64,000 nucleotides of DNA from Actinomycetes bacterium. GTDB taxonomy: Bacteria; Actinomycetota; Acidimicrobiia; Acidimicrobiales; Microtrichaceae. The notes under the pieces were generated by a model. The model ran no database searches. It saw only the letters and a list, made by a program, of their open reading frames with translations, and was not told where the DNA came from. The first letter of the stretch is position 1. Every line of letters begins with the position of its first letter. The position numbers and the translations under genes were made by a program. The stretch covers positions 62,001 through 126,000 of the forward strand of contig JAAEPF010000051.1 of NCBI GenBank assembly GCA_024222295.1, given 5' to 3'. This document shows positions 45,334 through 58,065 of this stretch, one piece after another.

Positions 45334-45376
45334 CCCGGCCGGCGGGTTGGCCGCGCTCCGAACGCCGCCGACCGGG
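45334..45376 (-). terminator. 3' hairpin of small gene, copy 1, conserved loop
   Basis: On the minus strand, about 8 nt after the stop of the small gene (45385-45534), a GC stem (CCCGG and GGCGG arms against CCGCC and CCGGG) closes a loop read on the plus strand as GTTGGCCGCGCTCCGAACG. Fifteen bases of this loop plus the adjoining base recur in the hairpin at 55796-55840, whose stem is different. Position suggests a terminator; the conserved loop suggests an extra role. Confidence 0.6.
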
Positions 45377-45384
45377 GAATGTGC

Positions 45385-45534
45385 TCAGACGATGGAGAGC
45401 CGGTAGTCGCCGGTGTGCTCGTCGTAGCCGACCTGGACTCGACGCCGGCGCACAACGGCTGCGGGGCGGGCTGAAGGGCCGGTGAAGGCGCTTCGACGGG
45501 TCCGGCGGTTGTTTACGGAGGTCATGTCGTTCAT
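45385..45534 (-). CDS. Small basic protein, paralogue of the one at 55847-55990
   Basis: 49 residues from ATG 45532-45534: MNDMTSVNNRRTRRSAFTG, then PSARPAAVVRRRRVQVGYDE and HTGDYRLSIV. Not a family I recognise. A paralogue at 55847-55990 has VSARTAAVLRERRLQIALDS and then GHHRITMA at the same place, so SAR-x-AAV-x-R-x-RR-x-Q is the shared core. The Arg-rich helix followed by a short acidic turn suggests nucleic-acid or RNA binding, but that is inference. There is no SD. An in-frame GTG at 45591 would add 19 residues (VLWSLPPPEP...) lying in a DNA block also conserved at the other locus. A 3' hairpin with a conserved loop follows the stop. Confidence 0.55.
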   Translation of the reverse strand: MNDMTSVNNRRTRRSAFTGPSARPAAVVRRRRVQVGYDEHTGDYRLSIV

Positions 45535-45561
45535 GTACAGATGATCGGGACATCTGCGCGG

Positions 45562-45620
45562 TTCTGGAGGCGGAAGGGACCACAGGACCACTCCGATGAG
45601 CCGTGGGGCCCATCGCCGGG
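45562..45620. repeat. Conserved 59-bp upstream block of small gene, copy 1
   Basis: Reading on the plus strand from TTCTGGAGGCGGAAGGGACC, this block aligns without gaps to 56018-56076, with about 44 of 59 positions identical by eye. It lies 28 bp upstream of the small gene ATG. It may be a promoter or operator, or part of the coding region if the upstream GTG is used. Confidence 0.6.
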
Positions 45621-54138: not shown

Positions 54139-54193
54139 CCCAAGTGTCCGGCTCCTCCGACCCAAGTGTCCGGCTCCTCCGACCCAAGTGTGG
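54139..54193. repeat. 22-bp tandem repeat upstream of acyltransferase gene
   Basis: Two exact units (54139-54160 and 54161-54182), each beginning CCCAAGTGTCCGGCTCCTCC, and a third partial unit (CCCAAGTGTGG) lie 27 bp upstream of the acyltransferase start. There is no dyad. The remaining intergenic stretch to 54458 shows no gene, hairpin or promoter I can support, apart from the out-of-frame tail of the broken lipoprotein gene. Confidence 0.88.
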
Positions 54194-55278: not shown

Positions 55279-55663
<385 letters not shown>

Positions 55664-55795: not shown

Positions 55796-55840
55796 GCTGA
55801 TCGGTGCCGGTTGGCCGCGCTCCGCACGGCACCGATCAGC
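55796..55840 (-). terminator. 3' hairpin of small gene, copy 2, conserved loop
   Basis: A perfect 14-bp stem (GCTGATCGGTGCCG with CGGCACCGATCAGC) closes the 17-nt loop GTTGGCCGCGCTCCGCA. It starts 7 nt after the stop of the small gene at 55847. The loop shares GTTGGCCGCGCTCCG with the hairpin at 45334-45376, while the two stems differ. That combination points to selection on structure plus loop sequence. Confidence 0.65.
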
Positions 55841-55846
55841 GCGGCT

Positions 55847-55990
55847 TCAGGCCATCGTGATGCGGTGATGGCCGTTGGAGTCCAGGGCGATCTGCAACCG
55901 GCGCTCCCGAAGCACTGCTGCCGTGCGGGCGGAGACGGTGGCCCAATGGGTTCCCATGCTGCGGGTCTGGTAGGTGTGCTGATCGCTCAT
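55847..55990 (-). CDS. Small basic protein, paralogue of the one at 45385-45534
   Basis: 47 residues from ATG 55988-55990: MSDQHTYQTRSMGTHWATVS, then ARTAAVLRERRLQIALDSNG and HHRITMA. Homologous to the 45.4-kb small protein over the Arg-rich C-terminal half. There is no SD; an in-frame GTG at 56047 would give 66 residues starting MGRWSLTAPE, matching MVLWSLPPPE at the other locus. Both loci keep the same order: 59-bp conserved block, small gene, hairpin with conserved loop. Function unknown; nucleic-acid binding is a guess from composition. It sits between glpK and rnpB. Confidence 0.55.
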   Translation of the reverse strand: MSDQHTYQTRSMGTHWATVSARTAAVLRERRLQIALDSNGHHRITMA

Positions 55991-56017
55991 GGTCAAGGTT
56001 TCGGCGGACTGGATGCC

Positions 56018-56076
56018 TTCTGGAGCCGTGAGGGACCACCGGCCCACGACAATGAGCCGAACGGCCCCGTGCAGGG
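56018..56076. repeat. Conserved 59-bp upstream block of small gene, copy 2
   Basis: Starts TTCTGGAGCCGTGAGGGACC on the plus strand and aligns without gaps to 45562-45620 (about 44 of 59 identical by eye, including GGGACCAC and ATGAGCCG). It lies 28 bp before the ATG of the small gene, the same distance as in copy 1. Confidence 0.6.
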
Positions 56077-56150: not shown

Positions 56151-57593
56151 TCAGAAATCCAGAGCGGACAGGTCTTCGTGCCAGTGACCGGCACGTCGGA
56201 CCGCTTCGGCCCAGCGGCCACGATCCGGCTCCGAAGCAGGCTCCACGGTCGCCCGCGGCGACCCGGTTGCTGCGATGTCGGCCCAGCCGCCCCATGTACC
56301 CGTGGCGAGGCCGGCGAGGAAACCGGCGCCCAGGGTGGTGGCCTCCCGCACCGCAGACACCTCCACGGGCACGCCGGTGGCGTCCGCCAGTGCCTGTACG
56401 AACACGTCGTTGGTCGACATGCCGCCATCCACCCTCAGCTTCTCGATCGGCATGCCCGAATCCTTGCGAGCAGCTTCCAGCAGGTCGGCGCCGCGGTGGG
56501 CCACACCCTCCAGCACCGCCCGGGTCACGTGGGCGGCGGTCGTCCCGCGCGTCACGCCGAGGAGCGCGCCGCGTGCCCCGTAGTCCCAGTACGGGGTGCC
56601 GAACCCGAGCAGAGCCGGCACGTAGGTGACGCCATCGGTGGACTCGACACTCGCCGCCAGCGCCTCTGACTCCGCGGCCGAACCGATCAGGCCCAGATCC
56701 TCCACTAGCCACTCGACATTGGTGCCGGCGGACAGCATCACGGCCTCGATGCCCCACGTGGGGCCCGAGGCGTCGCGCCAGCCGACGATGGGGAAGCAGC
56801 CCGCGCTGCCACGCCGGTCGAACTCGGCGCGTTCAGGACCCATGCACACGTCGAGCATCCCGCCGGTGCCGAAGGTGGCCTTGGCGTCCCCGGGCCGCAC
56901 GCAGCCCTGTCCGATGAGTGATGCCTGCTGGTCACCTGCGATGCCGCATATCGGAGGCGCACCGGGCAGGGCGGTCGCGGAGTCGACGTTGCCGGTGCTG
57001 TCGACAACCCTCGGCAGGGTGGATGCCGGGATACGCAGCCGCTCCAGCTTGGCGGGGTCCATGTGTGATCCGTCAGGCGCCATCAGCCCCCAGATACCGG
57101 CGTTCGACAGGTCGGTCACATGGTGGGCGCCCTCGGTCAGCAGCCAAACCATCCACGAGTCGGGCGTGCCGAAACACAGGTCGCGCTGTCTGTCGGGATC
57201 AACTGCGTCGAGGATGTTGGCCAGCTTCGTGGCCGACTCGTTGGGCGCGAACCTGAAGCCTTCGGCGGCGAGCACGAGGCAGTCGCCCACCGTGCGGAGG
57301 TCCTGCCAACCCTGCGCCGGAGCGACGGGCTCACCGGTCGTGCGGTCCCACACGATCGTGGTGGCGCGTTGGTTGGCGATGCCGACGGCCTCGACGGGAC
57401 CGTGCTCGTCGATCACCTGCCGGGCACAGTCGAGCGCGGCGGCGCCGTACGCGGCGGCGTCGAACTCCACCAGACCCTCGGCCGGTGTGTCGGGAAGGGT
57501 CGCCCCGGACAGTTCGTGGCTCACCGTGGCATCGGGATGCACCACGGATGCCCTCACGCTGGACGTGCCGAGGTCGATTACGAGGATGCTCAA
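56151..57593 (-). CDS. glpK: Glycerol kinase (FGGY family)
   Basis: 480 residues from TTG 57591-57593, preceded by AGGAGAAG; the frame is open upstream, but MSILVIDLGTSSVRASVV is the family start. It phosphorylates glycerol to glycerol-3-phosphate. Seen are DLGTSS (6-11), GIANQRATTIVWDRTTGEPV near 67-86 (substrate Arg), WLLTEGAHHVTDLSNAG near 146, GDQQASLIGQGCVRPGDAKA near 232, FGTGGMLDVC near 253, and LRVDGGMSTNDVFVQALAD near 388, the FGGY signature. Polyol specificity is best matched to glycerol but not certain. The partner dehydrogenase glpD lies at the window edge, six kilobases away on the same strand, not in one operon. Confidence 0.85.
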   Translation of the reverse strand: MSILVIDLGTSSVRASVVHPDATVSHELSGATLPDTPAEGLVEFDAAAYGAAALDCARQVIDEHGPVEAVGIANQRATTIVWDRTTGEPVAPAQGWQDLRTVGDCLVLAAEGFRFAPNESATKLANILDAVDPDRQRDLCFGTPDSWMVWLLTEGAHHVTDLSNAGIWGLMAPDGSHMDPAKLERLRIPASTLPRVVDSTGNVDSATALPGAPPICGIAGDQQASLIGQGCVRPGDAKATFGTGGMLDVCMGPERAEFDRRGSAGCFPIVGWRDASGPTWGIEAVMLSAGTNVEWLVEDLGLIGSAAESEALAASVESTDGVTYVPALLGFGTPYWDYGARGALLGVTRGTTAAHVTRAVLEGVAHRGADLLEAARKDSGMPIEKLRVDGGMSTNDVFVQALADATGVPVEVSAVREATTLGAGFLAGLATGTWGGWADIAATGSPRATVEPASEPDRGRWAEAVRRAGHWHEDLSALDF

Positions 57594-57627
57594 TGCTGCT
57601 TCTCCTGTGGCATCGGTTGGGCTGACT

Positions 57628-58065
57628 CTAGGACGCGTCGTCAGGGGTTGTGCTGCCCGTGCGATTCCAGCGGCGTCCGAACATTCCACCCAGCATCGCG
57701 GCGGTGGCCATCAGCAGTGCGAGCAGGGGGAACGCCACCCACGAAAGTGACTCGCCCCGCCAGATGCGGCTGATGATGCCGATGCCCTGCACAACGGCGT
57801 ACGCGATCGCGCCGCTTCCCGCGGCGTGTGACAGCGCCGCTTCGGGGCAGAGTCGCAGGACTCCCCATCCGCCGGCGGCGGCGCCGAAGAGGATCAGCAG
57901 CCACAGGAACAGGGTGACGGGTGACCCCTCGCCGATGTCCCCCGAGTTCACCAGCAGCTGATTGAACACCGCCACGGGGAGTGCCACCACCAGTGCTGTC
58001 ACCGCCCCGCGCCACATCGCCTGGGTGGGGGAGAGACTCTGCACGGGTTGGTCGGCCACGGCCAT
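57628..58065 (-). CDS. Four-helix membrane protein of unknown function
   Basis: 145 residues from ATG 58063-58065. Hydrophobic segments lie at about 19-37 (VTALVVALPVAVFNQLLV), 49-66 (LFLWLLILFGAAAGGWGV), 80-98 and 106-126. A polar C-terminus ends RRWNRTGSTTPDDAS. The spacing resembles small actinobacterial membrane proteins of the TIGR04086 type, but I cannot assign it. It is 34 bp from the glpK start on the same strand, so co-transcription with glpK is likely and it may relate to glycerol uptake or membrane function. A long open frame upstream is non-coding and contains a palindromic repeat. Confidence 0.7.
   Translation of the reverse strand: MAVADQPVQSLSPTQAMWRGAVTALVVALPVAVFNQLLVNSGDIGEGSPVTLFLWLLILFGAAAGGWGVLRLCPEAALSHAAGSGAIAYAVVQGIGIISRIWRGESLSWVAFPLLALLMATAAMLGGMFGRRWNRTGSTTPDDAS

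Follow-up and report, generated by a model that had tools for sequence, protein, structure and literature searches.

Intrinsic, Rho-independent terminators of the U-tract or I-shaped type in high-GC actinobacteria, and the highly structured 3′ ends without uridines described in a high-GC actinobacterium (PMC8269248), are close counterparts of the element analysed here; as far as that account describes them, they have in common with it a GC-rich hairpin of 11–17 bp after a small ORF. For the Rhizobiales trans-encoded sRNA RFMSmelC291 (sra33) an extremely variable stem is likewise reported, the dominant loop motif being in its second stem loop (PMC3927594). The dual-function sRNA VcdRP of Vibrio cholerae, as described, resembles the unit in that a short transcript carries a tiny protein and might also act as an RNA (PMC8672173). 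At the protein level, CrsL is described as a 5.7 kDa CarD-binding actinobacterial protein with a conserved MLGIGP motif, helical on binding CarD (PMC12709188), and resembles our proteins in size and in the predicted disorder of part of the chain.

The unit differs from each of these. Unlike the intrinsic terminators, most copies have no T-run (present in three of nine), and a 7-nt loop and its closing pairs are constant on unrelated stems, which is not expected of a plain terminator. RFMSmelC291 has another loop motif, occurs in other bacteria and, in what is reported of it, has no associated small-protein gene, whereas here a single hairpin forms the 3′ end of such a gene. Compared with what is described for VcdRP, the conserved element is the terminal hairpin loop, and any pairing role is putative. 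The small proteins end in a predicted beta-hairpin instead of carrying the motif reported for CrsL, and membership of that family was rejected, MLGIGP being absent by eye from 11 aligned sequences. Among open-licence papers we found no published description of the unit, nor any literature on a leaderless small protein of the Acidimicrobiia.

The window, by which we mean the whole 64,000-nucleotide stretch of DNA analysed, contains two copies on the minus strand. The first-pass annotation had described the same order and spacing of parts at both loci, and this was confirmed; the two proteins are homologous. Each copy begins with the proposed ungapped 59-bp block (45562–45620 and 56018–56076, minus strand), in which 44 of 59 positions are indeed identical, while the runner-up 59-mer on either strand of the window is identical to the block at 33 of 59 and the best in five mononucleotide-shuffled windows (one strand each) reached 32–33. 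In each copy 27 nt separate the block from the ATG. Copy 2 is flanked by an FGGY kinase gene (56151–57689) on one side and RNase P RNA (55280–55658) on the other. The features are, by position:

45597..45612, minus strand: copy 1, site 1 (upstream dyad), TGGGCC-CCAC-GGCTCA, from alignments of 10 and 11 copies
45575..45590, minus strand: copy 1, site 2 (downstream dyad), TGGTCC-TGTG-GTCCCT, 22 bp from site 1, from the alignments
45564..45569, minus strand: copy 1, CTCCAG element from the 11-copy alignment, at the −35 position if the transcript is leaderless; putative −35 role
45540..45545, minus strand: copy 1, hexamer ATCATC at the putative −10 position (11-copy alignment), 18 nt downstream of CTCCAG and 5 nt upstream of the ATG
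45385..45534, minus strand: copy 1, small ORF of 49 aa, with a basic N-terminal part and a C-terminal beta-hairpin
45334..45376, minus strand: copy 1, 3′ hairpin of 17 pairs, from folding
45351..45357, minus strand: copy 1, heptaloop AGCGCGG with closing pairs GG/CC
56053..56068, minus strand: copy 2, site 1 (upstream dyad), GGGGCC-GTTC-GGCTCA, from alignments of 10 and 11 copies
56031..56046, minus strand: copy 2, site 2 (downstream dyad), TGGGCC-GGTG-GTCCCT, from alignments of 10 and 11 copies
56020..56025, minus strand: copy 2, CTCCAG element, from the 11-copy alignment
55996..56001, minus strand: copy 2, hexamer AAACCT at the putative −10 position, 18 nt after CTCCAG
55847..55990, minus strand: copy 2, small ORF of 47 aa
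55796..55840, minus strand: copy 2, 3′ hairpin with a 14-bp stem and apical GG/CC, then CTTTCTCC, from folding
55815..55821, minus strand: copy 2, heptaloop AGCGCGG

A constant 15-base loop had been proposed for the two hairpins. The apex is constant, but not all of it is loop; two G-C pairs (GG/CC) form within it, so the loop proper is the 7-mer AGCGCGG. In copy 1 there is extra GUU/AAC pairing around a bulged C, and in copy 2 the apex fold lies 1.1 kcal/mol above the minimum, over a 3×3 internal loop. The 11-mer GGAGCGCGGCC occurs exactly twice in the window, both times at a hairpin tip, against 0.37 expected; two occurrences were reached in six of 100 shuffles, hence the count alone is not decisive, and nor is that of the 15-mer with up to three mismatches (16 found, 10.7 expected). 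Taken alone, the copy 1 hairpin region has a stability that is unremarkable in DNA this rich in GC (z −1.67, 15 of 200 shuffles equally stable). The values are z −3.22 (one of 200 shuffles) for the copy 2 region and z −4.3 to −5.6 for four hairpins from outside the window.

Comparison with related genomes upheld the pattern of differing stems on a constant loop. Nine copies from seven genomes and five genera (G005, G020, G021, G024, two in G016, G019 and the two window copies) carry the GG-AGCGCGG-CC apex, identical at all 11 positions. The nine hairpins are GC-rich, lie near the 3′ end of the gene and have 11–17 pairs (−23.5 to −37.6 kcal/mol). When arms were swapped between copies, the nine matching hairpins had a mean of −30.7 kcal/mol against −14.8 for the 72 mismatched combinations, nine of which reached the weakest matching hairpin, six of these within the single genus of G019, G020 and G021. 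Judged by these computed energies, the stem arms covary across the nine copies. A T-run (at least four T, no more than about 10 nt from the stem) follows three of the hairpins (G005, G016a and G016b); the other six, copy 1 included, are without a run of four T, copy 2 being followed by CTTTCT. A terminator scan found no terminator at copy 1.

Further copies in related genomes, to which the first-pass annotation had looked as a check, exist. The first relatives, in the same family-level group, were found with a two-sequence protein profile. Before joining the profile, G021 matched at E 2e-9, G005 at 1.6e-4, G024 at 9.7e-4, G006 at 0.002 and G020 at 0.003; the two G016 copies (0.008 and 0.011) and G002 (0.05) were accepted because the promoter is present, plus the hairpin in G016, while some other rows of similar score were judged spurious. 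A 59-codon member in G001 (contig C4) was found via its promoter. With an 11-row profile, matches at E ≤ 1e-12 were obtained in nine of 33 genomes and seven of 16 genera of the group (G001, G002, G005, G006, G020, G021 and G024, with two in G016 and two in G000, the window's own genome, which holds copies 1 and 2), though these E-values are not independent because all eleven are alignment rows (G002 in part). Found copies number one or two per genome.

The heptaloop hairpin is present at six of the nine protein-bearing loci outside the window, a count that includes acceptances aided by promoter or hairpin. Of the five outside homologues whose acceptance rested purely on protein similarity, four have it (all but G006). 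Furthermore, a hairpin model from three other copies matches the hairpin of each G016 copy (E 1.3e-6 and 6e-4). The loop can be absent, however: G006, G002, the G001 C4 gene and a promoter-linked gene on G001 C63 have no AGCGCGG hairpin.

Beyond the family-level group, a protein search of 397 genomes of the order, with at most 16 best candidates scored per genome, gave nothing convincing (best match E 2.9e-4). Weak matches at 21 places (E 3e-4 to 0.01) were not accepted; L135 and L150 were read, and the hairpin model on 11 of the 21 matched only L134 (E 0.74). A later profile search gave 26 rows (E up to 0.1), of which ten were kept; L202 was read and found unconvincing, and among L200, L202, L204 and L216 the hairpin model matched only L216 (E 0.57). 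A match in G016 on contig C78 (E 0.004) was dropped, lying in a different place without block or hairpin. A capped hairpin-model search of the 397 genomes gave matches outside the family at five places in four genomes; these were by eye mostly coding-like sequence, and no family small ORF was seen in the 420 nt upstream of them.

The exact 15-mer CGGAGCGCGGCCAAC occurs at at least 118 loci across 84,980 genomes. Among the matches listed none has the heptaloop apex in its minimum-energy structure, and these loci were rejected as relatives; L079 and L015 have a heptaloop fold within 1.5 kcal/mol of the minimum, and the acidimicrobial loci L051 and L056 look like coding sequence. With at most one mismatch, the 15-mer has five sites in the window's own genome, compared with three for controls, and the three sites besides copies 1 and 2 gave no hairpin-model match. 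When 135 distinct GGAGCGCGGCC sites were folded, in DNA that took in the 118 loci listed from the 15-mer scan, the minimum-energy structure showed the heptaloop apex at nine of them, a count biased because L217–L246 (including L223 and L237) were fetched by the hairpin model itself. These nine are eight family hairpins and L237, a short-stemmed, coding-like site in G005, whereas in copy 2 this fold is suboptimal by 1.1 kcal/mol; apart from G019 and L237 there was no other heptaloop hairpin among the matches listed. The hairpin-model scan scored the best 150 of up to 5245 candidates per genome and missed the real G020 hairpin, and the scan outside the family scored the best 17 per genome and missed the known G019 and G020 hairpins, hence absence elsewhere is not exhaustive. 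One separate hairpin, GGGGGG-CGGCGCGG-CCCCCC in G027 (L221, C39:17974–18009, minus strand), has a heptaloop-like apex and lies upstream of a frame we take to be MraZ-like.

The two window proteins (49 and 47 residues) are 34% identical and also have a C-terminal stretch in common (RRVQVGYDEHTGDYRLSIV and RRLQIALDSNGHHRITMA). An Arg-rich segment is found in both and in several relatives, although its Arg residues are not strictly conserved. AlphaFold models of the pair contain a C-terminal beta-hairpin (residues 33–38 and 43–48, pLDDT about 88), with low confidence outside it and a pTM of 0.27; the N-terminal half is probably disordered and often basic. That no described family fits, as had been suggested, agrees with our searches of Pfam, NCBIfam, PHROGs, PADLOC and Rfam: eight proteins against Pfam and NCBIfam and three against PHROGs and PADLOC gave nothing over the cut-off (best E 0.065), and among Rfam covariance models run over the window RNase P RNA alone passes its gathering score, matches at the two loci being sub-threshold. 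PDB 7pvp (E 2e-4) was set aside, covering 12 residues with no stretch that passes on its own.

Purifying selection on the small frame, on which the first-pass annotation had made its proposal depend, appears in close pairs, with dN/dS of 0.11/0.58 between G016a and G016b (0.04/0.94 over the last 25 codons) and 0.29/0.75 between G005 and G006. Values for G020/G021 were 0.71/1.25, for copy 1/G021 0.41/1.39 and for copy 1/copy 2 0.63/0.83. The ratio is near 1 or higher for copy 2/G005 (0.76/0.72) and copy 2/G024 (1.03/0.49), distant pairs that we read as saturated or poorly aligned.

In G019 the hairpin occurs without most of the frame (L223, C11:25411–25575). The promoter dyads are kept, the start-codon position reads ACG by eye, and the best protein matches in this genome are weak (E 0.008 and 0.019) and in longer frames. 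The hairpin is identical to that of G021 at 43 of 45 positions, while identity falls to 56 of 100 over the 100 nt that follow and to 28 of 49 within the promoter block. So either the hairpin would be under stronger constraint than the flanking sequence although the frame has gone, or frame loss may be recent. As G006, G002 and G001 C4 have no loop and G019 lacks most of the frame, loop and protein are not strictly tied.

For the 59-bp block, a part in an RNA element is not supported. Eleven copies, including G002 and G019, share the array TGGNNC-N4-GNNYCA, six bases, TGGNNC-N4-GNNCCN upstream of the gene, its two dyads 22 bp, or two helical turns, apart, and the 10-copy upstream alignment is gap-free. 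Pairing of the dyad arms was seen in 80.8% of cells, the shuffles giving 78.7%; 116 of 500 shuffles reach the observed value, and four other pairing measures were reached by 39 to 75 of 500; because pairing is not clearly above shuffles (39 to 116 of 500), dyads as RNA hairpins were rejected. Since the dyads are ungapped, show no clear covariation and occur in the same array before genes without the hairpin, the block is most likely promoter DNA, and the dyads most likely bind a dimeric transcription factor as a putative operator. After the dyads, 10 of 11 copies have CTYCAG, 18–19 nt, a loosely −10-like hexamer and 4–5 nt to the ATG; G002 deviates, and the spacing runs to the ACG in G019 and to the second of two in-frame ATGs in G005. 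Hexamers at the −10 position follow no strict consensus across copies, and a sigma-70 scan gave no promoter at copy 1. With this spacing, the hexamer ending 4–5 nt before the ATG and no Shine-Dalgarno sequence seen, a leaderless start is probable.

A block profile, with 150 candidates scored per genome, recovers its ten training copies by construction (E ≤ 4.1e-7). Its best match outside training, among those listed, is the G001 C63 gene (E 1.9e-5), a 59-codon frame with 41 nt between motif and ATG, the distance also found in copy 1. Further matches listed are G001 C23 (9e-5), G003 C47 (2.8e-4), G002 C1 (0.001), G014 C149 (0.002), G005 270142 (0.002), G001 C4 (0.003) and G028 C87 (0.004); weak rows mean little, because a match at E ≤ 1 turns up in 32 of the 33 genomes. 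The dyad array with one mismatch gave 36 matches against 18 for backwards controls in the 33 genomes (four places counted on both strands, six at loci treated here), and a similar pattern had zero matches in 899,061 bases of other taxa; a wider dyad regulon is a possibility that these counts weakly support.

Several individual arrays were noted separately. Three dyads of the same type, in a 22-bp tandem, lie upstream of a secreted collagen-like Gly-X-Y protein in G003 (L256, C47:2787), and in the window's own genome a tandem-dyad array lies upstream of a Thr/Pro-rich secreted protein (L280, G000:C32:32237–32276, E 0.014). The block match in G001 (L277, C23:120383–120424, minus strand) is about 400 nt upstream of a presumably GroEL-like frame. 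An array with a longer gap precedes a 106-residue protein containing CAHCGERVKFQAKVRNRQVICNVYVKGVWDRVEHFHADC in G005 (L284, C1:1101995). Within the window, TGGGTCGGAGGAGCC occurs twice in direct repeat at 54150–54186 (minus strand) and fits the dyad pattern; this may be coincidence or reflect a repeat within a coding region.

The genomic setting is partly conserved. A kinase gene ends upstream of rnpB in 18 of 24 rnpB loci above the cut-off, a 19th case (L193) being left out as a partial rnpB match. The unit lies within the kinase–rnpB gap in G000, G006 and G024; the gap is 81–168 bp in G019–G022, G025 and G032, and 482–1123 bp without the loop motif in the other nine. In G005 the unit comes after the kinase, with rnpB at a distance of 10 kb, and in G019, G020 and G021 it lies 7–13 kb from rnpB, giving a unit within 13 kb of rnpB in six of seven hairpin-bearing genomes. 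The G016 copies are on contigs other than that of the G016 rnpB.

We consider it somewhat better than even (probability about 0.55) that the unit gives a small-protein mRNA, regulated and probably leaderless, with a 3′ hairpin that ends or protects it and a constant loop that a partner reads. A promoter with two 16-bp dyads, 22 bp apart, would be bound by a dimeric transcription factor, and the mRNA would start at or beside the ATG and encode a protein of about 50 residues, disordered in its N-terminal half and ending in a two-strand beta-hairpin. A hairpin of 11–17 bp with a GG/CC-closed AGCGCGG loop, present in most copies, would then terminate the transcript or protect its 3′ end. The sequence of terminator hairpins is normally free to change, and we propose that the loop is kept because a trans-acting partner, protein or RNA, recognises it on the mRNA. 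Of the earlier idea of an RNA element, or of a terminator that is also a binding site, the constant loop on differing stems is upheld, and the block as an RNA part is not supported. This reading draws on the anatomy, the predicted stem covariation, the loop identity in nine copies and the selection in close ORF pairs.

The constant loop on variable stems would also suit a dual-function RNA, in which the terminal hairpin of the mRNA, possibly processed free, is an sRNA that pairs with CCGCGCU-type targets. Retention of hairpin and promoter in G019 after the loss of most of the frame fits this, as do the variable stems and dominant loop motif reported for the Rhizobiales sRNA (PMC3927594), but the loop is short and very GC-rich and G019 is the sole free-standing copy among the matches listed, and we regard this reading as doubtful. 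Were the small protein itself the partner, it would bind the heptaloop of its own mRNA and control its ending or stability. The Arg-rich segment, the joint presence of loop and protein at six of nine outside loci and both window copies, and the lack of other heptaloop hairpins among the matches listed, besides G019 and the short-stemmed L237, would agree with such autoregulation. Three genes with the protein and no loop (G006, G002 and G001 C4), a loop with most of the frame gone (G019), Arg residues that are not strictly conserved and the lack of a known-family match speak against it, however, and we think it unlikely.

That the loops are alike simply through common descent, on ordinary terminators with no further function, is compatible with all copies being one gene family in one family-level group, with the three T-runs, and with the structured 3′ ends without uridines described in a high-GC actinobacterium (PMC8269248). 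Yet all 11 apex positions agree in nine copies despite the extensive divergence of stems, spacers and promoters, and within-genome gene conversion cannot explain identity across genera, which makes this explanation quite improbable. We give very little credence to the idea of a mobile element or recombination unit with a hairpin that a nuclease or integrase would recognise in DNA form. Gene contexts do vary, and the unit is missing from the kinase–rnpB gap of several relatives, but synteny is partly conserved (the gap in G000, G006 and G024, and rnpB within 13 kb in six of seven genomes), one or two copies were found per genome, tblastn of the G016a protein had no match in phages or plasmids, and viral contigs held no relative of the window protein pair.

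The preferred reading, a regulated small-protein mRNA with a partner-read loop, concerns single-gene transcription units that form a small family within one family-level group. A constant loop on changing stems, beside a small-protein family that matches no profile, would point to a specific partner. Should the partner be the small protein, it would rank as an RNA-recognition module of unusually small size; should the loop act as an RNA seed, we would have a dual-function RNA from a group that has received little study. We also put forward, as an unlikely idea, a miniature self-contained riboregulator, in which the protein of about 50 residues encoded by a leaderless mRNA binds the heptaloop at the 3′ end of that same mRNA and the hairpin may outlast the protein. 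If true, the protein would represent a novel type of small loop-recognising protein that has an operator of its own, seen so far in one bacterial family.
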